From positions 248,001-312,000 of the forward strand of contig BEDY01000002.1 in NCBI GenBank assembly GCA_002335605.1: a stretch of DNA of 64,000 nucleotides. Reading direction: 5' to 3'. This stretch comes from Prillingera fragicola. Lineage: Eukaryota > Basidiomycota > Tremellomycetes > Trichosporonales > Trichosporonaceae. Shown here one piece after another: positions 4,550 to 52,523 of this stretch; the stretch's first letter is position 1, and each line of letters begins with the position of its first letter. Both the position numbers and the translations under genes were made by a program. The notes beneath the pieces were generated by a model that did not search any database, was not told where the DNA came from, and worked only from the letters and a program-made list of their open reading frames with translations.

Positions 4550-7500
4550 ATGTCAAATCTCGTCCAGTCGCTCGAACACGCGGTCGAGGCTGGTGTCAAA
4601 GGCATCATTGGCATTGCCGACTGCTACATGGGTGGCGGTAGAGAGTCTGGCGCGGCCTCCCCCACCGGCACAGTCGACATGGCCAAGCTCACACTATCCA
4701 GTAGCGCCAGCAACGACCAATCCGACCCCATCGCCATCGCGCAGCCTGAAGCGACGCCTGACGCGGGCCCGTCGTCGGCTCCCGCCCAGGCGCCCGCGCC
4801 TAGCCTCGCATCGCGCATCGCTGCAGCGAGCCAGGACAGCCTCGTCCAGCTCACTGACGTGCCTAGTGGCTGGATTCATCTCCAGAGTACCTATCTCGAC
4901 GCCGCTGGTGGCCAGCGACGTGTGCGCTCGTTTGGCCTGCGTAACTTGTCTAGTGCCACAGTCGACGTCGAGATTGCGTCCGACCTCGGCGCCCAGGTGT
5001 TGTTCTTCGTGGCAGAGGACGACGCGTCGTCATCAAGCTCCTCGAGCTCGTCATTCTCGGCTGCAGACGGCCAGCAGTCGCTTACCCTCACTCTGCCGGC
5101 GCTCACCGCCACTACTGTGTGGTTGGCGTTCCAGCCGTCTACCTCTACCCCATCGAGTCCCTCGGGTTCGGTTCCCTCGACCGATGACGGCTTTACCCCA
5201 CGAGTGGCCCCCAATGCTGCAGGCGACTTGTCGCCCGTCCCGGGTGGACGGCTTCCTTCTGCAGCTGGAAGCAGTGTGATGTCAGATGGTAGCTCGATGG
5301 CGCTCTCGACAATCTCAAGCTCGTCGGTCGCAGGCAGCTCGCGTGATGGCTTTGCTCCTCCTGCCGCGGCGCCTCGCCGATCAGACCCCATCCACCGTGC
5401 CTTCTCTGTCCACGGCTCCATCCTCGTTCACGCGACCACACAGGAAGGTGACGTTCTCACAGCTCCGGCACATCAGAACATTACCCTGCCGTTCTTTGCC
5501 ACCGTGTGTAGGTCATTCTTCTCTACCGCGGCTATCGACCCGGCAACCGGTGTGGCAGCTGGGTCCCAGACGTCAAATGGCAAACTTGTGATCGACTTTG
5601 GATCTGACAATGTTGTTGGGGCAGAAGTGCATCGCGACATCATTCTTGTCAACCGCTCGGAGATTGACCTCGTGTGGACAACGGCTATCCTAAACTGCCG
5701 GTTCAAGGACAGCGTGTGGTTCTCGCTTCGAGACCTCGATTCCGAGAATGTCTTTGGCGCAGATACCTCGCCAGAACCAATGCCGCTGCCTGCTCTGTCA
5801 TCTCGCCACTTGCGCTTGGCACTGCGGGCTAAAGGCCCAGTGACTGATTTCGATTTCGACTTTGTCATTTCGAATGTCCACCAGTCGGGCAACGCGGTGA
5901 CTGTCCGCGCACTCGGGTCGTGCCTCGCGACTTCTGGCGATGACATGCTGCGCATCACCAACGGATCTTCGCTCGACTTTGGTCAGATACCAGACGGGAC
6001 GTGGACGAAGCGTTTGATGGTCATGAAGAATGCCGGCGACAGGCCCATTGACGTCCACTTTTCCGCCACGCCTGGTTACGAGGTCGTGTTCAGGCTGGCT
6101 GGTGTTGCGGGAGAGGACATCGACGAGGACATGCCGACTCATCCGGTGATCCGCGACAAGCGCCACGAGGCGCTGTCGCGCCAATCCACGCGCGACAGCA
6201 GGTCGCGTGAGACGTCGGGGACGTTTAGTTCGCGCTTTGCCGCATCCGAGACGTCGTCGCCTGGCCAGCCGAGGTCGCAGCTCTTCGTCGACGCCATCCC
6301 TGGTGAGAGTGGCGACGACTGGTCGGCACCGCCCGCGAGCGACCGCGACAGCTCCATGGCGCCCTCACGACCCCTGTCTCGCGTGACCAGCAGGAGCTCA
6401 AGTTACCGCCCGTCGCGCAACGACGGCGAGTCGGACGACGACGACAGTCAGCACTACTACGTGCCTCCGATGGACCCACCGCAGGGTGGCCCGTCAGACA
6501 ACCTTGGCGACCGTGATATCCCCAACCAGATTGAGGAGCTCACGTGCCGCCCTGGTACCGAGTATCGCGTGTTCGCAATGTACCGCCCCGTACGCGACCT
6601 TACCAACCCGCCCGAGATTGCTGGCAAGTTCCGCTCTTCGAGCTTCAAGGTCTATCTTGACTCTGCGCCATCAGCGTCGAGGTCGCGCCCCGCCGCGCGC
6701 TCGCGCAAGGTGCTCCACTGCTCTGCCGAGTCGTGCACGTCATTCGTGTCGATCCCCTCTGGTCACCAGATTGACTTTGGAGAGGTTACTGTTGGCGCGT
6801 CAAAGTCGACGACCATCACCATTGAAAACCTGAGTGCGCTTTCGGCTCGCGTCGAGATTGCGGCCATCTCAAAGGTGTTGAACACGAACCGCAACGTCAT
6901 CATCATCCCTCCGTACGAGACGGTGCAGGAGCGTATCGACTTTTTCCCGCGTCGCATCAATGATCACTACGAGAAGCAGGTGTTTGTGCGCAACCACCTG
7001 AACCGCTCCAACAACCAGCTCATCGAGGTGCGCTCAAAGAACGTGGACGTGTACAACGTCACCCTGCACTCGCACTTGTATCGCATCCTCACGCCGTCGG
7101 GCAGCAACTTCCTGGACTTTGGCTCTGTGATAATCAACTCGCCATCGGTCAGGACTGTGCAGTTCCAAAACCTCACGCACAAGCCACTGGTCCTCGACCT
7201 GTCGGCTTCCCAGCCCGAGGATGTTGAGCTGTACGTCAAGGCCAGCGACGCTCCCATCACCCCCATACGCCCCGAGATTCTCGCAAAGTATGCTGCCTTG
7301 GAACCAGACCGCCCCGCCAACGGCAACTTGAAAGAGCGCTTCGTTGAGTCTCTCCAGGACAAGGACGGTGCGGCTGGCGAGAGCAAGGCACCTGTCAAGT
7401 CCAAGGGTGCAGCTCGTCGTGAAAGGAGCGCTACGCGCGGTGCCAAGAGCGAGGAGAAGACTACCATTGGCGCCAATCTCGTGTCGGCGCTCAAAAAGGG

Positions 7501-9952
7501 GGCTCGTGGCAGGCCAGTTCAACTCTACGGCAATGCTGTCGTGTTCAAGGATAGGTCACTACTCGATGACTCCGAGTACCTGGACCTCGCCGCTGGTCCT
7601 CCCACCGTCGCACACCGCCAGTCTTCCAACCAGAAGCGTCACCACCTCCTCGAGACGATTGCGCTCGAGGACAAGTCCAAGCTCTCCGGGCTTCACCCGC
7701 GTGTGCCCAACCTTGACTTTGCTGCTCTCGCCAAGTCGAGTGGCTTGTATGTCAAGGACGAGCTGAAACGCCGCAAGACCAAGTCGTCGGCTGGTTCCAA
7801 GCGCGAGCCTCAGACTCCAACCAAGCGCGAGCTCACCATCAAGACCGAGGAGCCTGTCAGCCCGTCGCAGAGCAACGTGCTCAAGACGCCAGTGGTCAAG
7901 AACGGCTCGGCCACCATCAAGTCGCCTGCCCTCACCGGCAAACGCGCCGAGCTCAAGACGGACCCGGCCAACGTCACGGACGCTGCCAAGCTCTCGCCAG
8001 ACGAGCTCATTGTCGCGCTCGAGCACCACGACCAGAAGCGTTCTGCATCGGCGGCAAAACACTTTAGCCCCGACGAGGAGGACCAGTACGTGCGCCGCCT
8101 CGTTTCACTGCGCAAGGAGCTACAGAATGCGGTCAACAATGGCAAGTTTGTGCCTGCCAGGGTCCTTACAGTGCCACCTGGTGCGTCGCGCCAGCTCGTG
8201 GTCGTCATGACTCCCAACGGGAGCACAAGGCCACACGTCACGACGCGTGCCAAGCGTGCCGAGTCACGCATCTTTATCAAGTTGCTCGAGTACGACAAGT
8301 CGCTACTCACCGACTGCGTTGGCAAGCACACAGACCTCTCGGAGCTGCCCGTGCGCGACCTTGTCATCCGCTCGTCGTGCGTCCGCTCCGTGCTCGAGGT
8401 GCAGCAGTCTAGCATCAACTTTGGCACATGTGAGCGTGGCGAGGTCAAGTCGCGTACGATAGTCATTCACAACAAGAGTGACTGCGTCGGTGTCTTCCGC
8501 ATGCGCACCAGCGGTTCGATTGCTTCCGGCAACCTAAAGCTCGGACTCGGCCGGTACGGAGTTGTATCGGCGTTTGGCCGGAAAGAGGTTGCGTCATTCT
8601 CTTTCACTCCATCGATGGTGGGCAACTACAACGAGACGATTGTTGTTGAGAACGTCCTTGACTCGTTCAACGACCAAAACGTGCTTGTCAAGGCTACCGT
8701 GCGCAAGATGCCGACCTTCTCGCTAGACCTGGCCAAGATCGACTTTGCTCCCAGCGCTACTGGCGCATGGCCCAACGCCGCCGGGTTCGTGCTTACCAAC
8801 ACGTCCAAGGTCGAGCGCACCTTCGTCGTCGAGGTCCCCGAGGCGCCGACTGACGCGTTCGCCGAGCTTTCGCTCGCGCGCGACGAAAAGGATGCCGGAC
8901 AGGCACTGTCCAAAGGCGAGGAGGAGGAGGTCGAGGGCATCCTGCAAAAGCTCAAGATTGCGCGTCGCAAGAACAAGCCCGACAAGATTGCAAAGTACGA
9001 GAAGCGTCTCTCCGAGCTTGGTGTTGTCACTGCTCCCCCCGAGGACGCAGCGGCTGCCGACGACGAGGACGGAAAGTCTGGTGCCGTCACGCCGACTGCC
9101 GGCGAGGGCTCGACCCTCAGCCTGGCTGTGACGCTCCAGGCGAACAAGAAGGCCAAGATTCTTGTGCACCTCGTCCAGGCCAAGGGTCCCAACGCGCTCG
9201 CGACCACCATCAAGGTGTTCGAGCGCAAGAACACGGACGAGACCGTTACCATCGACGTGTCCGCGTCTCCCAACCCTGTCGTTGCTGCGGCTGCGCAATC
9301 GACCTCTGCCAATTCTTCAGAGGGTGAGTACCACGAGCTTTGTGCAGCAGCTGACATTGCAGACCCTCTCAACCTGGCCATCATGCAGCACTGCCTCGAC
9401 CTTACACTACAGTGTCCTGTATCCCCCACAGCTTTCTGTGTTGGCTCGACCCTCTTCTACCCCAAGTCGGCGCCGTTCTACTATTCACTTCAGCCGCACT
9501 TCTCGACGTTCCCGGATCCAACGACGGGCGAGCCAGCGGGCCTAATCCTGGCCGATGGCTACTCGCGCCAAATTCCTGGCAACACCCACGCCGAGGCCAA
9601 TGCGCTCGCAAACTTCCACGCGCGCATGGACGAATTGGAGGAGGCTGCGACGCCCGAGGGCGAGGACACGCCGTCGCTCAACGCAGGCTTGCCCTCGGCA
9701 TCTGAGATTCTCAGCCAGGCAGACTGCTATGCGACCATGGAGCCGTGCTCTGTCCGCACCAGCGGTGGACCCAGCTGCGCACTCGAGCTCGTCCGCGCTC
9801 ACGTCAAGCGCGTGTACCTCGGCGTCGAGGAGCCGCCAGACTTTGTCCAGTGTGAGGGTGTTCGCATCCTCGAGCAGGGCAACGTCGAGGTCGCGCGCGT
9901 GCTGGGTCTCGAGGAGCAGTGCCTCTCGCATGCACGGAGGGGAAGGAACTAA
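4550..9952 (+). CDS. ASH/Hydin-like beta-sandwich repeat protein with a C-terminal Rib2-type deaminase domain
   Basis: Exons are 4550-9323 and 9363-9952, giving 1,787 aa. The 39-nt intron (GTGAGT donor, CTGAC branch, TTGCAG acceptor) is itself open and a multiple of three, so retention would insert 13 residues. Repeated segments of the form 'I/L-DFG-x(2-3)-G-x-n' near residues 345, 467, 741, 855 and 1290 resemble the ASH/Hydin/MSP immunoglobulin-like fold. Ser-rich linkers lie near 160-260 and 520-640, and a Lys-rich linker near 1060-1180. The last 200 residues (from about 1592) form a zinc deaminase: NTHAEANAL near 1667 and EPCSVRTSGGPSC near 1719-1730. The Cys-x9-Cys spacing matches fungal Rib2-type (riboflavin pathway) deaminases rather than the PCxxC of dCMP or tRNA deaminases. 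The role of the N-terminal part is unknown. The first ATG of the frame sits in a good context after a CT-rich leader. The frame is certain; the fusion needs transcript support. Confidence 0.85.
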   Translation: MSNLVQSLEHAVEAGVKGIIGIADCYMGGGRESGAASPTGTVDMAKLTLSSSASNDQSDPIAIAQPEATPDAGPSSAPAQAPAPSLASRIAAASQDSLVQLTDVPSGWIHLQSTYLDAAGGQRRVRSFGLRNLSSATVDVEIASDLGAQVLFFVAEDDASSSSSSSSSFSAADGQQSLTLTLPALTATTVWLAFQPSTSTPSSPSGSVPSTDDGFTPRVAPNAAGDLSPVPGGRLPSAAGSSVMSDGSSMALSTISSSSVAGSSRDGFAPPAAAPRRSDPIHRAFSVHGSILVHATTQEGDVLTAPAHQNITLPFFATVCRSFFSTAAIDPATGVAAGSQTSNGKLVIDFGSDNVVGAEVHRDIILVNRSEIDLVWTTAILNCRFKDSVWFSLRDLDSENVFGADTSPEPMPLPALSSRHLRLALRAKGPVTDFDFDFVISNVHQSGNAVTVRALGSCLATSGDDMLRITNGSSLDFGQIPDGTWTKRLMVMKNAGDRPIDVHFSATPGYEVVFRLAGVAGEDIDEDMPTHPVIRDKRHEALSRQSTRDSRSRETSGTFSSRFAASETSSPGQPRSQLFVDAIPGESGDDWSAPPASDRDSSMAPSRPLSRVTSRSSSYRPSRNDGESDDDDSQHYYVPPMDPPQGGPSDNLGDRDIPNQIEELTCRPGTEYRVFAMYRPVRDLTNPPEIAGKFRSSSFKVYLDSAPSASRSRPAARSRKVLHCSAESCTSFVSIPSGHQIDFGEVTVGASKSTTITIENLSALSARVEIAAISKVLNTNRNVIIIPPYETVQERIDFFPRRINDHYEKQVFVRNHLNRSNNQLIEVRSKNVDVYNVTLHSHLYRILTPSGSNFLDFGSVIINSPSVRTVQFQNLTHKPLVLDLSASQPEDVELYVKASDAPITPIRPEILAKYAALEPDRPANGNLKERFVESLQDKDGAAGESKAPVKSKGAARRERSATRGAKSEEKTTIGANLVSALKKGARGRPVQLYGNAVVFKDRSLLDDSEYLDLAAGPPTVAHRQSSNQKRHHLLETIALEDKSKLSGLHPRVPNLDFAALAKSSGLYVKDELKRRKTKSSAGSKREPQTPTKRELTIKTEEPVSPSQSNVLKTPVVKNGSATIKSPALTGKRAELKTDPANVTDAAKLSPDELIVALEHHDQKRSASAAKHFSPDEEDQYVRRLVSLRKELQNAVNNGKFVPARVLTVPPGASRQLVVVMTPNGSTRPHVTTRAKRAESRIFIKLLEYDKSLLTDCVGKHTDLSELPVRDLVIRSSCVRSVLEVQQSSINFGTCERGEVKSRTIVIHNKSDCVGVFRMRTSGSIASGNLKLGLGRYGVVSAFGRKEVASFSFTPSMVGNYNETIVVENVLDSFNDQNVLVKATVRKMPTFSLDLAKIDFAPSATGAWPNAAGFVLTNTSKVERTFVVEVPEAPTDAFAELSLARDEKDAGQALSKGEEEEVEGILQKLKIARRKNKPDKIAKYEKRLSELGVVTAPPEDAAAADDEDGKSGAVTPTAGEGSTLSLAVTLQANKKAKILVHLVQAKGPNALATTIKVFERKNTDETVTIDVSASPNPVVAAAAQSTSANSSEGEYHELCAAADIADPLNLAIMQHCLDLTLQCPVSPTAFCVGSTLFYPKSAPFYYSLQPHFSTFPDPTTGEPAGLILADGYSRQIPGNTHAEANALANFHARMDELEEAATPEGEDTPSLNAGLPSASEILSQADCYATMEPCSVRTSGGPSCALELVRAHVKRVYLGVEEPPDFVQCEGVRILEQGNVEVARVLGLEEQCLSHARRGRN
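9324..9362 (+). other. 39-nt in-frame intron at the domain junction
   Basis: The donor is GTGAGTA, the branch is CTGAC and the acceptor is TTGCAG. Splicing gives a smooth join (NSSE-DPLNLAIMQHC) that resembles the start of Rib2-type deaminases. The intron has no stop codon and is 13 codons long, so both spliced and unspliced messages stay open. Confidence 0.75.
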
Positions 9953-12849: not shown

Positions 12850-15510
12850 ATGTCTGGACTGGAGTGGAGCATCGTAAACGCAACAAAAGCAGAAGGCTCA
12901 TCCCTCACTGCCGAGCTCGCATCGGCTCTCACAGACGGCGACTTTAAGCGCGTCGTTCTCACCGACGAGAGCGTCGCAGCTCTCAAGCGCGTCCCAGGGC
13001 TTCTGGACGGTCTCACCGAGGCAAGTTCTTCCGCAGCCTCTTCAAGCACACCTTCCGAGGATGAGCAAGTTCTTCTCCTCGAGATTGCTGTCGCACTCCA
13101 GCACTCGTTCGTGCAGGGCAACTGGACTGGACCGGAGCTCAGCTTCACACCTGCGGACGTCATTGCTGCTGTCGTTGGCGCTGGAGCTACCGACGAGGAG
13201 GCCAGCACTGCTGCGAATGCCGCTGCTCTTCCCTTCCTTACTCTTGCAGGTGAGCCAGCCTACCACCTGGCCACCGCCCCTGCACTCTTCCTCCTGTCCA
13301 CCCGCCTGATCGCCTACCTCGCTGCTCTCCCACAGCCCCTCTCGACTGTTGCCATCTGGCAGCTCCGCAGCCACTCCGTGCACTTGGCCCTTCTCGATGA
13401 GGTCGTTCCTATCGCCGACACTGTTCTCGAGTCGGTCATTTCCCTCATCCTCCGTGCCCCCGAGCAGGACATTTCTGCTGCCCTCAACCTCGAAGTTGGG
13501 CTCCTTCACCACAAGCTTAGCAACGAGCGGGCAGCCAACCAGGCCTTCCTGGCGGCGGCCCGTGCGTCCGAGCTCGAGTTTGAGTTGACTGGTGCGCTTG
13601 GTAAGAGGACAAAGTTCCAGGTCGAGGCGCACTCGCAGCTGGTACTGCTGGCCGAGTCGCGTAAGCGTGACGCCGACGGCGATGTGGACATGTTGGCGGC
13701 GGGACCCGCTCCCGAAGCGCTGGCGCTCAACGATGAGGTCCTACTCGAGCAGACAGAGTTTACCAAGGTGACTGCCACCCCGGGTTCCTCCACTCTCTCT
13801 CATCTCGACCCCTCGGAACAGCCTGCCCTCCACCCTCTGGACCAGGCTCTGCTCCTTTCGCTGTGTCTCGCCCAGCGCAACTCGTCGCCTGCTCACGGCC
13901 TGACGGCTGAGCAGATGGCGCCCTTTGTTGCGCGCGTGGTCTCGCATCCCCGCAACTGGAGTGTACACACCACTGCTCTCGTTCTGCGTGCCCGTCTCGA
14001 GTCTAACCGGTCACGTACTGTTGAGCGCTCTGCCCTCCAGCTCGCCGCCCTTATCGAACAGATGCCCTCAGCCGACAGCGCTGTCTCGGAGCGCCTCAAG
14101 TACTTTCACCAACTGCCTCTGCCCAGCAAGTGGGAGATGGAGCGCGAGCTCGCCAAGCGCTACCTCTCCCTCGGTGTCATTCGCTCCGCCCTCGACATCT
14201 TCACTCGCCTCGAGATGTGGGAGGATGCCGTCCTCTGCCTGCAGCGCATGGAGCGCGAAGGTGAGGCCAAGCGCATTGTTACCGACCTCCTCGAGGGCCG
14301 CAAGCTGGAGTCGGACGCTGTTCAGGTCCTCGGCCGCGCCAGCCTATCCGACACCCGCCGCGCAAAGATCTCCTCGGCGCGTGCCGCCAAGCTTTGGTGC
14401 GTCCTCGGCGACATTGCCCTCATCACCGACGAGGCAGCACGCGACCCTATCGCAGCCCGTGACGCTGCTATCGAGCTCTACTCGCGCGCCTGGGACGTTT
14501 CCGAGCGAACCTCGTCCCGCGCCATGCGCTCCCTCGGAGCGCTCTACGTCCATGTCCGCGACTTTGAGGCTGCCATCGAGCCGTTCCGCAAGTCGCTTGC
14601 TATCAACCCTCAATACCCCCAAGCATGGTTCACGCTCGGTGTGTGCTTCATGCGCCTTAACCGATGGACCGAGGCGCGCGATGCCTTCCGCCGCGACGTT
14701 CAGGTCAACGACGAGGACTCGGAGGGCTGGAACAACCTTGCCGCCGTCTACCTCCGCCTCAACGAGGAGGGGATCCCTGCCGGCTCCGAGCCACCCCCCG
14801 TTACCTTTGAGAACAAGACGCTTGCCTACCGTGCTCTTCGTAACGGACTCCGCACCGCATTCAACAACTGGCGCATGTGGCAAAACTACATGATCATTGC
14901 CGTTGACGTCGGAGAGCTCTCTGAGGCAGTTCGTGCCTACACCCGTGTGGTGGAGGAGATGGGCGCCAAGGACCCCACACTGGCTGTTGACCCGGCTGTG
15001 CTTGACCGCCTCGTTGACGCTGTCACTCGTGACGAGTGGAACGACGGCAAGGGGCCTCTGGACGGCAACCCCCCATCAACTTCGAACGAGGGCTGGGGAC
15101 TGCTGCCCCTTGTCGAACGGTTGTTTGACCAGACCATTCTCCCTCGCGTGTCGGATTCGCCTCGCGTGTGGCGCGCCCACGCCCGTCTCCAGCGCTGGAA
15201 GGAAGACTGGGCCGGCGCCGTCGACGACTACCTCCGCGCCTACCGCTGCAGTGTCGCGCAGGACGAGACCGTCGAGCGTGACCGGGTAAGGTGGCGCGAG
15301 GCTGTTCACGAGATTGATGAGCTCGTGTCCGTTTTGACTGCACTGGGACCGCGCGTGCCCAAGGTTGAGGGCAAGAAGGGTGGCGACTGGAGGTTCCAGG
15401 CGCGTGGTATTGTGAGGACGTTTATGGGACGGACAAGGGAGGCCTTCGAGGATGAGCCAGAGTGGGAGGGGCTCAAGGAGTTGTTGGATGACTTGAAGAG
15501 GGCAGAGTAG
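12850..15510 (+). CDS. EMW1: TPR protein of the TTC27/Emw1 family
   Basis: This is a single exon of 886 aa, starting in the strong context CACAATG. The family (human TTC27, yeast Emw1/YNL313C) is an essential TPR protein linked to cell-wall integrity and, in later work, to protein biogenesis. The N-terminal 250 residues are helical and Ala/Leu-rich. The conserved C-terminal half carries tandem TPR units, clearest at about 558-640: a unit centred on the IEPFRKSLAINPQYPQAWF stretch, one around RWTEARDAFRRDVQVN, and one beginning GWNNLAAVYLRL. Length and the position of the TPR block near the C-terminus fit the family. Candidate GTGAGC motifs inside the gene (for example at 13251) are in open frame and appear not to be used as donors. 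Confidence 0.85.
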   Translation: MSGLEWSIVNATKAEGSSLTAELASALTDGDFKRVVLTDESVAALKRVPGLLDGLTEASSSAASSSTPSEDEQVLLLEIAVALQHSFVQGNWTGPELSFTPADVIAAVVGAGATDEEASTAANAAALPFLTLAGEPAYHLATAPALFLLSTRLIAYLAALPQPLSTVAIWQLRSHSVHLALLDEVVPIADTVLESVISLILRAPEQDISAALNLEVGLLHHKLSNERAANQAFLAAARASELEFELTGALGKRTKFQVEAHSQLVLLAESRKRDADGDVDMLAAGPAPEALALNDEVLLEQTEFTKVTATPGSSTLSHLDPSEQPALHPLDQALLLSLCLAQRNSSPAHGLTAEQMAPFVARVVSHPRNWSVHTTALVLRARLESNRSRTVERSALQLAALIEQMPSADSAVSERLKYFHQLPLPSKWEMERELAKRYLSLGVIRSALDIFTRLEMWEDAVLCLQRMEREGEAKRIVTDLLEGRKLESDAVQVLGRASLSDTRRAKISSARAAKLWCVLGDIALITDEAARDPIAARDAAIELYSRAWDVSERTSSRAMRSLGALYVHVRDFEAAIEPFRKSLAINPQYPQAWFTLGVCFMRLNRWTEARDAFRRDVQVNDEDSEGWNNLAAVYLRLNEEGIPAGSEPPPVTFENKTLAYRALRNGLRTAFNNWRMWQNYMIIAVDVGELSEAVRAYTRVVEEMGAKDPTLAVDPAVLDRLVDAVTRDEWNDGKGPLDGNPPSTSNEGWGLLPLVERLFDQTILPRVSDSPRVWRAHARLQRWKEDWAGAVDDYLRAYRCSVAQDETVERDRVRWREAVHEIDELVSVLTALGPRVPKVEGKKGGDWRFQARGIVRTFMGRTREAFEDEPEWEGLKELLDDLKRAE

Positions 15511-20132: not shown

Positions 20133-21786
20133 ATGACTACCCAGGCAGGTGCCATCAAGACATTCACCCGAGAAGAGGTTGCAAAGGTATGTCCACCTGT
20201 CTTGAGCAAGCGCTGACACTCAGCACAACAAAGAAGGTGACCTGTGGATCATCATCGACAGCATCATCTACGATGTCTCCAAGTTTGCCGCCATACACCC
20301 TGGTGGCGCCGAGGTCCTCACCGACGAAGATGTAGCAGGTAAAGACGCGACGACAGTCTTCTTTGGCCTACACAGGATCGAAGTGCTTCAGCGACCGCAG
20401 TACGCGCGTATCCGCATCGGCCAGGTAGAGGGCGAGAAGCAGCGCATTCACATGCCGCAGCCTGGAGACATCTCACGTGTCCCCTATGCCGAGGCCAGTT
20501 GGTTGACAAAGGACTATGTCACGCCGTACTACAACGACAGCCACCGGGCGTTGCAGAAGGAGCTGCGGGCGTTTATCGACGAGGTCGTCTTCCCCGATGC
20601 GCAGAGGTGTGAGGCGACGGCTGAGCGGTATAGTGCCGACGTCATGCGGCAGATTGCGGACAAGAAGCTCAACCATATGCGGCTTGGGCCGGGAGAGCAT
20701 CTGCATGGGTTGACGCTCATGGGAGGCGTCAAGGGCGAGGACTATGATCACTTCCAGTGAGTCGCCAGTGTGCAGGCATTGCTGACAGCTAGCGAGCTCA
20801 TTGTCAAGCAAGAGTTCTCGCGTGTCACGGCCCACGGTTACAGCCACGGCATGAACGCGGGTGTCACCATCGGTCTGCCGCCTGTGATGAACTTTGCTGC
20901 CGAGCCGCTCCGCTCGCGGGTCACAGAGGAGGTCCTCTCCGGGAAGAAGACGATGGCGCTCGCGGTCACAGAGGCGTTTGCTGGCTCTGACGTCGCTGGG
21001 CTACGTACACGTGCCACACGCAGCAAGGATGGCAAGACGTGGGTCATCAAGGGCACCAAGAAATGGATTACAAACGGGCTGTGGGCCGACTACTTTCTCC
21101 TGCCTGCCAGGACGTACGGCGGTGACAAGGAGGACGGGCTCGTGTCGTGCTTTCTGGTTCCCCGCTCAGCCGGGCTGGTGACCAAACCCATCCCTACCTC
21201 CTACTCGCTCGCAGCCGGCACCGCCTTTGTGACGCTCAACAACGTCCAAGTGCCCGCTGAGAACATGATTGGCCCAGAGGGCAGGGGTCTGTACATTGTC
21301 TTTTCCAACTTCAACCACGAACGCTGGGGCATGTGCTGCGGCGGCGCAGTCATTGGCCGGCTCATCATTGAGGAGTGTCTCCTCTGGGCCTCGCAGCGTA
21401 TCATCAAGGGCAAACCCCTCCTCGCTCAGCCAGTCATTCGCCAAAAGCTCGCCTTCATGATCGCCAAGACTGAATCAGTGCAAGCCTGGCTTGAACACTT
21501 GACATACCAGATGTGCAACATGGACTATGCGACGCAGGCCCGTGTGCTCGCGGGACCCATGGGGTTTCTCAAGATGCAGAGCACGCACGTGAATAACGAG
21601 ATTATCACAGAGGCGGTCCAGATCTTTGGCGGGAGGGGAATGACAAAGACGGGTATGGGTAAGTATATTGAGCATATCCAGCGGACGCGCCGCATTGATT
21701 CTGTTGGCGGTGGTGCCGAGGAGGTGCTGGCTGATTTAGGCGTGAGGCAGGCTATGCGGAGCATGCCCAAGGACGTTAGGCTGTAG
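20133..21786 (+). CDS. Acyl-CoA dehydrogenase with an N-terminal cytochrome b5 domain
   Basis: Exons are 20133-20186, 20224-20756 and 20793-21786, giving 526 aa. The introns are 37 and 36 nt. The second uses a CTAG acceptor, because the nearer CAG would give an immediate stop. Residues 1-80 are a cytochrome b5 heme domain: HPGG with His43, and the second ligand His68 in GLHR, 25 residues apart as usual. From about 110 to the end is an acyl-CoA dehydrogenase, with the substrate and FAD motifs ALAVTEAFAGSDVAG and GTKKWITNG, a middle beta domain, and the C-terminal helices with VQIFGGRGMT and GGGAEEVLADL. It should oxidise an acyl-CoA (chain type unknown), with the b5 domain as a possible built-in electron acceptor. 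Fungal fusions of this type exist. No organelle targeting peptide is visible. Confidence 0.92.
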
Positions 21787-45595: not shown

Positions 45596-46174
45596 AATTC
45601 ACTACCAGCATGCTCGATGTGTCTATGATCTATCGTGCAGCAGACCCCGTCGACCCTTGCTCATCCACGTGTTGAGGCAGACCATGGACTGCGGATGCCG
45701 AGTGTATTTCTGGTAGTGGTGATGCTCCTACGTGGTATTCTTAGCCACTCTCGCTATCTCTTTATACCTTTGCCCGGAAGATGCTGCCTATCGTTCAGGA
45801 GAGCGTGGTGGTGTGTCATGCGTGGCGCATACCTTGGTCGTGTGCTTCTGGCCTTGCTCGCGTGCGCGCCGCCGCGAATGGGAGAGCAGTCGGGATCAGG
45901 AGACCGGAGGTGACGAGTGGGACATTGAAAGTCACCATCAACCAATAACGTACTTGGCCTCAATGCATTTGCCTGAATCCATTCTGGTTAGTGAATCTGG
46001 GGTGCAGAGTTTGGTAATACTATGCTCGGTGCTCAAGTGATCACTGGTGCAGAAAGATTGCATGCACACCCCCTGCCATTCCTCTATGCTATTTGGAATG
46101 GCACTAATTAGAACGTTAAAAATATCTATGGATTGGTGAAGTTCAAGAAACTGTGTAGCTCAGAGATGCGCTTA
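45596..46174. other. Intergenic, 3' region of PHO89
   Basis: No gene is supported. The last 100 bp become AT-rich (attagaacgttaaaaatatc near 46109), as expected of a 3' UTR or polyadenylation region of the minus-strand symporter gene. Confidence 0.4.
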
Positions 46175-48007
46175 CTACTTCCAGTGAGGAGCGTTGATGA
46201 AGAGACCCATGAGGATTCCGGCCGAGACACCGGCGACGGGGACGGTGAGGACCCATCCGAGGAAGATCCAGCCAAAGGCCCTCCAGTTGATAGCCTTGGG
46301 GCCCGACGAAACGAGACCAACACCAGCGGTAGAGCCAGTGATGCACATGGTGGTCGAGACCGGGATACCGTACTGCGAGGCGAGAAGGACGGTGATGGAC
46401 GAGCCAAGCTCCATCGAGAAACCACGCGAGGGCGACATGAGAGTAAGCTTGTTGCCAAGAGCAGACATGATCTTGTAACCGTAGGTGGCGAGACCGATAA
46501 CAAGCATAGCACCACCAAAGGCCATGATCCAGGTAGGGGTGGGGGTCTTGTCACCAGTGACCTCTCCGTACTTCCAGGTGTAGTAGATGGCAGCGAAGGG
46601 ACCAACAGCGTTGGCCGTGTCGTTGGAACCGTGGGCGAAAGAGTTGGTGCAAGCGGTGAGGACCTGGAGGAACGAGTAGAGGTGCTCGGTCTCGTTGTCG
46701 TACTGCTTGGCGATCTCGTGCATCTCGCGGAGACGGGCAAGCTCGGCGTCACCCTTGCCGAGCTGACGCTTGTGGATGTCGACTGTCATGCCGTGGCTGA
46801 GGGCACCCCAAACCTTGTAACGCAGAATGATCCAGAGGTTCTTGGGCGAGCACCAGAGGCCCTCAATCTTGGGGGTGGTGTCGACCTCCTCGACCTCGGC
46901 AAGGGGAACCTGGGTGCGGCGCTGGACCTCGGGCTCGACGCGGCCAGCAGCCTCAATGTCCTTCTCCTTCTGCTCAAACGAGCCCTCAGTCTCGGAGCCG
47001 GGAACACGAGTGTTCTGAGCGGGAACGTTGTCGCCGTGGAGGGCATGGGCGGCAGCGGCGTCCGCGCCGTCGTCGCGGTCACGGACACGGTAGTCGGGAA
47101 CGTACTGAACCTTGAGGTCCTCGGGAGGGGGAGGGGGCATCTGACGCTTCCAGAGAAGGGGACCAAGGAAGAAGTGGTACCAGCGGAGAGTGTAGTCGTG
47201 GCGAACAACCTTGACGTAGACGTAAGGAAGCCAGAAGACGAGCGAGAGAACGGCGATTCCAACACCAGTAAGGACAATGGCGAGGGCAACGGTGAGTTCG
47301 GGAAGCTTGTCAAGGCCAAGACCGGGGGCACCCTTGTAGACAATCGACATGGTGAGGACGACGGCCACGGTAAAGAAGTAGAAGGGCGAGGCGATGAGAC
47401 CCGCCTTGAGAGGGTTCTTGCGCTCCAGGACGGCATACTTGGTGATGAGGTAGACAACGGCACCGAAACCAGCGGCGATTCCGGGGGCGATAGCGAAGCC
47501 GGCAAAGATTGTGCCGAGGCCCTTGCCGTTATTCCAGCCCCACTGGACCGACTTGCCGCCACCGAGGGCGACACCGACACCGGCGAGGGCGGAAACAATG
47601 GAGTAAGTGGTGGAGACAGGCCACGAGTTCTTGGTGGCAATCATGAGCCAGGTAGCCGAGGCGGTGAGAGCACAGGTAAAAGCGAGCATCTGGACTCCGG
47701 CGTCCCCACGGAACACCTTCATCGAAATGATACCATTCTTGACAGTGCCGGCGACCTTGGAACCGGCGAGGACAGCACCCAAGAATTCACAGACAGCGGC
47801 CGCCATAACCGCCTGACGCATTGTCAGGGAGCGCGACGAGACCGAAGAGGCAAACGAGCTAGGTTGACGTTAGTATATTGACACCAGTAATGTCTATAGC
47901 ATTGTTACTCACTTTGCGACATCGTTAGCACCAATGTTGTAAGCGTCGAGCGCCGCGAACAGAAGGCCAATGACGAAGATGTAGTCGTACTGGTGAAGAG
48001 TCGGCAT
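46175..48007 (-). CDS. PHO89: PiT-family Na+/phosphate symporter Pho89
   Basis: Exons are 48007-47913 and 47858-46175, giving 592 aa. The 54-nt intron restores the N-terminal PiT signature GANDVANSFASSVSSRSL (from residue 26). The second, inverted-repeat copy of the signature, NSFAHGSNDTANAVGPFA, lies near 436-453. Hydrophobic helices fill both halves. They are split by a hydrophilic loop at about 262-370 (KRQMPPPPPEDLKVQYVPD and charged stretches), as in Pho89 and Neurospora PHO-4. It should import inorganic phosphate with sodium at the plasma membrane, mainly at neutral to alkaline pH. It diverges from a secreted alkaline phosphatase across a spacer with CACGTG/CACGTT boxes, pointing to Pho4-type induction on phosphate limitation. 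The long plus-strand frame over the gene is a codon-bias shadow. Confidence 0.95.
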
Positions 48008-50439: not shown

Positions 50440-52523
50440 ATGGTCGCTATTCAGCTGCTCACTGCTCTTGTGGGGGCGAGCACCGTCGCTGCTCAGACTT
50501 TCCGTCGTACCGCCGCATGCCCCGGTCTCGGCTGCGTCTTCCCCCCCGACCAGGTCGACTTCATCGCTGGCCGTAAGTGGCACTTTATGGTGTGGCATGT
50601 GGCAGTCCCTGACGTTAGGCAGAGACCTTTGACATCCGCGTCGAGGTCCAGGCGCCTGTCAACGGCACTGAGGCCTACAACGGCGGCAACGTCAACAAGG
50701 ACTTTACCCTCAAGATCGGTGGTGAGGGTGCCGAGCTCATCGACGTGACCCAGTTCTTCGGCCTCGAGGACCCCAAGCGTGAGTGACGTATGCGGAGCAC
50801 CACTGACAGACCAGTCGAGGAGCACACCTTCTCGTGGTATGATGACCTGTTTGCCCAGGACGCCAAGACCAAGACTGCTGTCAATGCCGTCTCCAAGTCG
50901 TACCGCAACGTCCAACTCCACAACCCTGGCCGCTACAAGGTTCAGCTCACCTACAACGACGGCTCGGTCAACGAGGTTACTTGGGAGGTCCTCCCCATCC
51001 CCAAGTGCGGCGCCAAGGCCAAGAACCTCATCTTCTTCGTGGGCGACGGCATGGCCACCTCTATGATCTCTGCTGCCCGTCTCCTTGCTCACAAGATGGT
51101 CAACGGCAAGTACCAGACCAAGCTCAAGCTCGACGAGGCCCCAGCCTACGGCTCCCAAATGACCCACTCGCTTGACTCATTCATCACCGACTCGGCCAAC
51201 TCGGCTTCGGCCCTCTTCACTGGCAAGCGCATGACTGTCAACGGTCTCAACGCCTACACCGACTCAACTGGCAAGGCTTTTGACAACGCCAAGGTCGAGA
51301 CCATCTTCGAGATGTTCCGCCGTATCACTGGTGGCCAGGTCGGTGCCGTCTCCAAGGCTTACATTGCCGACGCCACCCCCGCCGCTGTCTGCACCCACAC
51401 GTCGCAGCGTTCGCAGTACACTACCATCATTGAGCAGTACCTCACTGGTGTCACGGGCAACCACTCGTGGTACCCCTGGCACGGTATTGACGTCCTCATG
51501 GGCGGTGGTGCTGAGAACTTCCTTGCCGGTCCCGGTAACGGCAACGTCTCGCAGTTTGACCGCTGGGCCGGCGAGGGTTACCAGGTCGGCCACACCAAGA
51601 CTGACCTCAACGCTCTGTCCAACGATGACCGTGCCCTTGCCATCTTCACCCGCGGCAACGTCTCGACCTGGCTCGACCAGCACGTCTACACTGACGCCCT
51701 CGTCCACGCCATCCAGCCCGACGGCACCCAGGGGGCTTACGACCAGCCCGGACTCAAGGACATGACTCTCAAGGCTATTGACATTCTCTCCACCCGTGCC
51801 AAGGCTCGCGGCACCGGATGGGCCCTCATGTCCGAGGCCGCTCTTATCGACAAGGAGATGCACGTCCAGGACATTGACCGCGCTCTCGGTGACCTCCTCG
51901 AGCTCGACGACACTGTCCGCGCCACTCTCAAGCACCTCGAGGAGATTGGCGAGCTCGAGAACACTCTCATCGTCGTCACCGCCGACCACGGTCACGGCTT
52001 TGACGTCTTTGGCTCGGCCGACACCGAGTACCTCGCCGCCCAGAAGGCCGACCGCAAGCGCCGCGAGGCCGTCGGCACCTACGCCTTGTCGGGTCTTTCG
52101 GCCTACACTGTGCCCAAGGACGTCAGCCCTACCAACCACTCGACCTTTGACTCGCCCCAGGGTGAGGGCTTCCCCGTTACCTGGGACCCGCGTTACTCGC
52201 TCGCCCACGGCTGGGCCGCTTACCCCGACAAGCGCGAGGACTTTACCATCAACAAGGAGCACGAGCGTATCCCTGCCGTCAAGAATGACACTGGCTACTT
52301 TTTCAACCCCGATGACAACCACGGTGGCTTTGCCATGACCGGCAACATTGATGCCTCCGAGGGCCAGGGTGTCCACTCGCTCGTCGACGTCCCCATCTAC
52401 GCTTGGGGTGCCGGCCACGAGCTGTTCCGTGGCGTCATGGGCAACGTCGACATTGCCTTCAAGGTTGCCGAGGCTCTTGGCCTTGGTAAGAACTTCAACG
52501 CCACCAGCGAGTACAAGAAGTAG
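50440..52523 (+). CDS. Secreted alkaline phosphatase
   Basis: Exons are 50440-50572, 50623-50778 and 50815-52523, giving 665 aa. The introns are 50 and 36 nt. The signal peptide is MVAIQLLTALVGASTVAA, cleaved before QTFRR. An N-terminal beta domain (about 20-160) precedes the catalytic domain. That domain has the metal motif NLIFFVGDGMATSMISAA near 167-184, the phosphoserine loop ITDSANSASALFTGKR near 220-235 with the nucleophile in DSANS, and VVTADHGHGFDVFGSAD near 483-499 carrying metal-binding Asp and His. The enzyme should release phosphate from organic monoesters outside the cell or in the wall. No C-terminal anchor is seen. The phosphoserine loop departs from the usual DS[GAS][GASC][GAST][GA]T pattern (Asn, and Ser for the last Thr). 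It pairs with PHO89 as a phosphate-scavenging unit. Confidence 0.9.

Follow-up and report, generated by a model that had tools for sequence, protein, structure and literature searches.

A scaffold of ASH repeats and a Rib2-type deaminase share a single reading frame in Prillingera fragicola

The gene considered here lies at positions 4550-9952 on the plus strand of a 64,000-nucleotide stretch of the Prillingera fragicola genome (contig BEDY01000002.1, positions 248,001 to 312,000; hereafter the window). It is a true fusion, in which a single open reading frame (ORF) joins a scaffold of ASH repeats to a Rib2-type deaminase. Rib2 deaminates a ribitylamino-pyrimidine phosphate, DARIPP, in riboflavin synthesis (PMC8256712). 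On the reading that we favour, with a probability of about 0.8, the gene encodes one chain made of an old fungal ASH/PapD scaffold, a short flexible linker and the organism's own Rib2 deaminase of the riboflavin pathway; translation as one chain and Rib2 activity are what we infer from the sequence. This is a new domain architecture for a known enzyme and is absent from the literature searched. No paper on an ASH scaffold-Rib2 fusion was found in the open literature, as covered by titles and abstract openings among the matches listed (subscription journals lying outside), and the available parts of PMC10409787 and PMC8466774 contain nothing on Rib2.

The frame is open over 1,800 codons from its ATG, with no interruption anywhere; a preliminary description of this DNA had called it 'nearly uninterrupted', which was right as to the open frame and understated its continuity. 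The start codon at 4550 is backed by a conserved N-terminus (MSNLVQSLEHAVEAGV here, compared with MAHIVQSLENAVEAGV in Vanrija humicola). The layout of the gene is given below, where pLDDT is the predicted local distance difference test score.

4550..9952, plus strand: whole gene, ASH-repeat scaffold and Rib2-type deaminase (open frame, relatives, conserved N-terminus)
4838..6742, plus strand: predicted ASH/PapD-like domains 1-3, residues ~97-330, 334-461 and 464-731 (AlphaFold2 model, fold matches)
6755..7090, plus strand: ASH-like domain 4, residues ~736-847, the domain best recognised by sequence (PF15780, PF22544, PF22073; model)
7091..8329, plus strand: ASH-like domain 5, residues ~848-1260, with a long insert (model; pLDDT < 50 over much of the insert)
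8354..8704, plus strand: ASH-like domain 6, residues ~1269-1385
8717..9265, plus strand: ASH-like domain 7, residues ~1390-1572, with a conserved helical hairpin (model, hairpin pattern, alignment columns)
9266..9323, plus strand: scaffold-deaminase linker, predicted disordered with pLDDT < 50 (AlphaFold2 model, linker table)
9324..9362, plus strand: intron candidate of 39 nucleotides, GTGAGT...GCTGAC...TTGCAG, phase 1, no in-frame stop (pattern, relatives' proteins)
9363..9949, plus strand: Rib2-type (DARPP) deaminase domain (Pfam, sequence and fold comparison)
9578..9595, plus strand: GNTHAE, with the zinc His, catalytic Glu and phosphate-binding Asn (motif, comparison with Aspergillus oryzae Rib2)
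9740..9778, plus strand: EPC-x9-C (EPCSVRTSGGPSC), with two zinc Cys and the phosphate-binding Arg and Ser (motif, same comparison)
9821..9835, plus strand: GVEEP, its Glu equivalent to the ribitol-contacting Glu of Aspergillus Rib2 (same comparison)

Both parts of the protein are recognised by Pfam. PF15780 (ASH, 51.9 bits) and PF22544 (HYDIN-type Ig, 51.5 bits) match near residues 740-827, and these, like PF22073 (41 bits) and PF24798 (39.8 bits), exceed the cut-off; PapD-like matches around residue 1282 are weak. The deaminase family PF18785 (Inv-AAD) matches residues 1664-1793 at 64.8 bits (cut-off 26.5). Two AlphaFold2 models (residues 1-737, mean pLDDT 68.2; residues 735-1800, mean pLDDT 70.6) contain, as counted from their strand lists, seven beta-sandwich regions with low-confidence inserts between them, after which come a linker predicted to be disordered and the deaminase fold; within domains 1-3, such inserts fall at residues ~203-274 and ~527-651. 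The preliminary description had claimed ASH/Hydin-type segments and a complete Rib2-class deaminase in one frame, and had suggested searches with hidden Markov models and structure prediction as checks. The ORF and the Pfam matches above cut-off for both ASH/HYDIN-type and deaminase families uphold the claim, as do the beta-sandwiches and folded deaminase of the models. Its count of at least five DFG-x-G segments holds for the repeats themselves, of which the models have seven, but exact DFG stands at only four domain starts; one NFG and one DFA occur at others, and another DFA lies within an insert.

The deaminase domain carries the HxE and PC-x8-9-C motifs by which fungal Rib2 is recognised, in the form of the HAE plus PC-x9-C zinc motif that had already been noted. 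Among solved structures, those of A. oryzae Rib2 (AoRib2; PDB 7dry, 7drz, 7ds0 and 7ds1) are nearest in sequence, and the fold agrees. In AoRib2, the zinc ligands are His61, Cys102 and Cys112, the catalytic residue is Glu63, and the substrate is held by Asn59, His61, Arg105, Ser107, Glu136 and Thr53 (PMC8256712). The window domain keeps all of these except Thr53, replaced by a serine that retains the hydroxyl; serine is found at this position in all 18 basidiomycete rows of the alignment (A3). Zinc motifs and precursor-contact residues are kept in 27 of the 28 fused proteins described below, and free proteins from Agaricomycetes and Mrakia align along the domain. Among the 16 Pfam families listed for the whole protein at E-values up to 1 there is no pseudouridine synthase, and Pfam gives no reductase domain match. 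The bacterial RibD/RibG model, TIGR00326, scores 37.2 bits, far below its cut-off of 156.35.

The scaffold's final conserved motif, NTDETVTIDV, begins at 9230, and ~130 nucleotides free of in-frame stops separate it from the deaminase. The intron candidate at 9324-9362 is the sole match to GTRMGY...CTRAC...YAG within the 5.4-kb ORF and has a canonical donor, branch point and acceptor. Because it is in frame and free of stops, scaffold and deaminase are joined whether it is spliced or not, in a product of 1,787 amino acids in the former case and 1,800 in the latter; the residue numbering to 1787 in the preliminary description corresponds to its removal. Splicing would yield SSE-DPLNLAIM, where the annotated V. 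humicola protein has TSE-DPLNLAIM. Similar intron patterns of 35-64 nucleotides occur 24 times in the window, where first-order Markov shuffles predict 4.8, an excess which makes a length of 39 nucleotides plausible. Across relatives the joint was compared through protein sequences, with P0026 left out of the linker table and the linkers of P0013, P0015 and P0017 obtained by fallback extraction. P0005, P0007 and P0030 have extra residues of differing sequence at the joint, as expected from an unspliced intron, while five proteins (P0008-P0011 and P0014) end just beyond it. Free Rib2 proteins from other fungi start near the equivalent of the DP, as in P0135 (MDPHLQFI). The deaminase thus appears to have been added to the scaffold gene as an exon, and the earlier proposal of translation as one chain is probably correct, in view of the conservation and the intron at the joint.

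Candidates for the rest of the riboflavin pathway are present in the same genome: the RIB1, RIB3, RIB4, RIB5 and RIB7 families all have Pfam matches above the cut-off, those to the reductase family lying ~1.2 Mb from the fused gene on the same contig. A second Rib2, which the preliminary description had proposed to look for, was found by none of four Rib2-directed searches of this genome, made with the window domain, the free Cryptococcus neoformans copy, PF18785 and an Amanita copy. A PF00383 search gives eight other deaminase-family places, representing seven genes (L004 and L009 are one gene). By motif these resemble cytosine deaminase, dCMP deaminase, Tad2, Tad3 and three HGE/PC-x2-C proteins, and PC-x9-C is seen in none of the eight places. 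The fused deaminase seems to be the sole Rib2 copy in this genome; given the other RIB candidates and the failure of these searches to reveal another Rib2, the Rib2 step is most simply assigned to the fused chain. Fungi usually need one GTP cyclohydrolase II for riboflavin; two matches to this enzyme occur here (G000:C6:1154300 and G000:C4:1556554).

To follow the fusion across fungi, 74 scaffold proteins were collected: that of the window, 50 relatives from a first search and 23 from a further search. Proteins were counted as fused on a strong match to a Rib2 profile that includes the window's own domain, four matches below 1 bit being counted as none. A deaminase follows the scaffold in 28 of the 74 and not in the other 46. 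The 28 are the window protein, 23 named proteins and four others; the named ones belong to Vanrija, Cutaneotrichosporon, Naematelia, Saitozyma, Kockovaella, Kwoniella (to which P0031, whose name is truncated after K, was assigned), Cryptococcus, Tremella and an unspecified Tremellales species. Of the named Tremellales and Trichosporonales scaffold proteins, 23 of 24 are fused, the exception being that of Cryptococcus depauperatus. The 46 consist of 11 ORF-called proteins, which similarity places in these two orders and which run no further than the linker, of C. depauperatus P0035, and of 34 distant proteins, none of which has a deaminase; the length limit of the search admits a fused form for most of the distant groups but not for the longest (Rhizophagus and Clydaea). 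Nineteen of the distant proteins are named, from Mrakia, Malassezia, Tilletia, Ceraceosorus, Sympodiomycopsis, Kalmanozyma, Ustilago, Rhizopus and its relatives, Rhizophagus, Synchytrium and Clydaea; besides Mrakia and Rhizophagus, the distant set thus samples Ustilaginomycotina, Mucoromycota and chytrids. The nearest relatives of the window genome put it in the Trichosporonales, as a basidiomycete yeast. On these sequences, the fusion is taken to mark the Tremellales and Trichosporonales as sampled, with the scaffold being older. The gene model of P0006 (Cutaneotrichosporon cavernicola) extends beyond its deaminase to take in an LsmAD (ataxin-2-like) protein, a part not found in the 64-kb window; this model may have merged a neighbouring gene.

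In C. depauperatus the scaffold P0035 has no deaminase, and a separate deaminase of 172 amino acids (P0088) is encoded on another contig, so that this species is a natural split. Orthologues encoded by two genes had been named in advance as evidence against the fusion; they are seen in this one species of the 24, the other 23 being single genes by annotation. Among the best 120 of 619 deaminase matches there is no named free Rib2 from Trichosporonales, Kwoniella, Naematelia, Saitozyma or Kockovaella, and no named free copy from Tremella mesenterica; some short matches are probably pieces of fused genes, as in the pairs P0009/P0059, P0010/P0062 and P0011/P0060, whose members have contigs of equal length. 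A tree of 118 deaminase domains, the bootstrap of which had not settled, groups all 64 Tremellales/Trichosporonales-type domains (100/99) and, within the tree, 19 Trichosporonales-type rows (100/98). In approximately unbiased (AU) tests on 42 of these domains, a single fused clade is not rejected when T. mesenterica is left out (p 0.305), and five free Cryptococcus copies as one clade give p 0.070. The end branches of Cryptococcus fused copies measure 0.13-0.40; those of free copies measure 0.79, 0.47 and 1.07, and two more, on a common stem of 0.64, measure 0.053 and 0.18. The trees leave undecided how the free copies branch and in what order fusion, duplication and fission occurred within the Tremellales.

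Several observations weigh against the favoured reading. The RIB7 match in this genome is split and modest, at 36.3 and 32 bits, and the PF00383 search missed the fused gene itself, so that such searches of the genome fall short of full coverage. The proteins of the annotated relatives derive from gene models. Both forms of the deaminase, fused and free, occur in three Cryptococcus species (DSM 104548, P0029/P0068; DSM 104549, P0018/P0071; C. neoformans, P0021/P0076, from different strains), where the pathway step need not fall to the fused copy. With T. mesenterica included, a single fused clade is weakly rejected (AU p 0.032), and the T. mesenterica protein P0033 has HGE for HAE and a glycine for the second zinc Cys. 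The P0033 deaminase (residues ~2138-2433) also carries a long insert; it is possibly an inactive copy, or the product of a gene-model or sequence error.

The scaffold is best called an ASH-repeat family of fungi. Profile matches (FAP65, E 5.9e-9; Hydin, E 9.6e-7) and fold matches (for the model of residues 1-737, to central-pair proteins, CEP192 and PapD, mainly in domains 1-2) indicate a likeness to CEP192 and to the ASH/PapD repeat proteins found in the central pair of cilia; several central-pair proteins match at similar strength by profile and by fold. Foldseek gives tight matches for single domains only (2e6j, TM-score 0.84 by target), those over several domains being low (0.04-0.40 among the first 24 rows), and the fold comparisons barely probe domains 3, 4 and 5. 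Searched with the PF15780 profile, the genome has this gene as its sole match, at 24.9 bits as a lone stretch, below the cut-off. The helical hairpin of domain 7 (EEEEVEGILQKLKIARRKNKPDKIAKYEKRL; residues ~1455-1489, window 8912-9016) is rich in Lys, Arg and Glu. A pattern fitted to the alignment is matched by 63 of the 74 scaffold proteins, from Tremellomycetes to Rhizopus, and another pattern by 6 of 17 proteins. Six of the 11 misses are cut-short proteins (P0034 and P0036-P0040), and among the 74 scanned there is no match in Rhizophagus, Synchytrium, Clydaea or M. equina.

Orthology to CEP192/SPD-2, as suggested by the Pfam Cep192 models and by 7ptb, was considered but set aside. In the available part of PMC11922060, the SP2D of Spd-2/CEP192 is made of two neighbouring ASH domains that carry the motifs LxGYGG and GDExxR. 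Both motifs are absent from the window protein and from all seven relatives examined, and the superposition over two domains is loose.

It is proposed that, in an ancestor of the Tremellales and Trichosporonales, the scaffold gene gained the deaminase at its end, as an exon connected through an intron. Most likely the tether is flexible and the enzyme acts independently of the scaffold, which would keep its own, older job. A free Rib2 gene is missing from this genome by the Rib2-directed searches, and with no free copy retained the fusion may have become locked in. Such loss could by itself account for the persistence of the fusion, which bears on a further proposal that would add to this interpretation: that the deaminase is positioned or clustered by the scaffold, for instance at a microtubule-organising site, the nuclear envelope or a membrane, or next to other enzymes of riboflavin synthesis, as a compartmented or channelled Rib2, and that the fusion was kept for this placement. 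The retention of the fusion in 23 of 24 named relatives, the resemblance of the scaffold to proteins which assemble ciliary and centrosomal structures, and the end branches in Cryptococcus, where fused copies look more constrained than free ones, are in keeping with this. Set against them are the position of the other riboflavin gene candidates elsewhere in the genome, the predicted disorder of the linker, which would allow no fixed geometry, and C. depauperatus, which manages without a fusion; we hold placement only tentatively. More doubtful again is its strongest form, in which an ancestral ciliary/centrosomal-type scaffold, retained in fungi that lack flagella, anchors a vitamin B2 step at one cell site in the Tremellales and Trichosporonales, coupling the role of the scaffold and flavin supply in one essential protein.

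The locus might instead give rise to two proteins, with the deaminase freed by a promoter of its own, by an internal start at ATG 9383 or by cleavage of the linker. This ATG lies seven codons into the domain, P0059 was called from the equivalent Met, and a disordered linker could be cut. The DPLNLAI preceding that Met is nevertheless conserved and matches the N-terminus of free Rib2 proteins, the Met is Ile in P0021, P0029 and P0032 (though the linkers there hold earlier Mets), and the ~130 nucleotides upstream leave little room for a promoter, all of which makes separate products unlikely, though the linker may still be cleaved. A deaminase that has left riboflavin for a new substrate, such as a nucleotide or RNA, is less probable still. 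The best Pfam label, Inv-AAD, is an AID/APOBEC-type model, T. mesenterica has lost a zinc ligand and three Cryptococcus species also hold a free Rib2, but the contact residues for the riboflavin precursor are kept in nearly all fused proteins, the closest solved relative by sequence is a Rib2, free Agaricomycetes and Mrakia proteins align along the domain, and this genome has candidates for the rest of the pathway with no other Rib2 found. Between the two possibilities raised in the preliminary description, the relocated metabolic enzyme is hence favoured over the new substrate. Mis-assembly or a gene-model error joining two genes is the least credible explanation, scarcely worth entertaining: gene models can merge neighbours, as with P0006, but the joint is an open frame in the raw DNA, independent of any gene model, and 28 proteins drawn from many assemblies share the arrangement.

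If the fused chain is indeed the riboflavin enzyme, loss of the 3' part of the scaffold gene would abolish riboflavin synthesis. This reading would also explain how such a yeast has Rib2 though a search for a small free Rib2 would fail. Animals are not known to make riboflavin, which lends general interest to an unusual enzyme of this pathway in these fungi. The relatives form a natural series of scaffold alone, fused, fused plus free, and split (C. depauperatus), which asks whether tethering the enzyme to the scaffold matters. The distribution points to an ASH-repeat family old in fungi, not described in the literature searched and persisting in lineages that, we presume, are without flagella.

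Elsewhere in the window, Pfam identifies a tetratricopeptide repeat (TPR) protein (12850-15510), an acyl-CoA dehydrogenase (20851-21786) and an alkaline phosphatase (50790-52523). A plus-strand ORF of 571 amino acids at 46166-47881 has no Pfam match and lies opposite a PHO4 phosphate transporter ORF (46175-47821, minus strand); it looks like a shadow frame.

Compared with known systems, the scaffold resembles HYDIN, CFAP65 and other central-pair ASH proteins, and CEP192, in its tandem ASH/PapD-like domains, the fold agreeing well per domain and loosely over several; CEP192 differs in having the two SP2D motifs. To our knowledge, no deaminase occurs in ciliary ASH proteins. The scaffold-only relatives in Ustilago, Malassezia, Mrakia, Rhizopus, Rhizophagus, Synchytrium and others have the same ASH core without the deaminase. 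Bacterial RibD/RibG carries a C-terminal reductase, unlike the window protein, which has no reductase match and falls below the cut-off of that family. Yeast Rib2, as given in the available part of PMC8256712, joins a pseudouridine synthase to the deaminase, and so shares with the window protein a C-terminal deaminase in a larger protein; here, where no such synthase is detected, the partner is the ASH-repeat scaffold. With A. oryzae Rib2 the deaminase shares family, zinc motif, substrate-contact residues and fold. According to the same part of that source, mold Rib2 consists of the deaminase domain only, whereas here this domain forms the C-terminus of a protein of ~1,790 residues.
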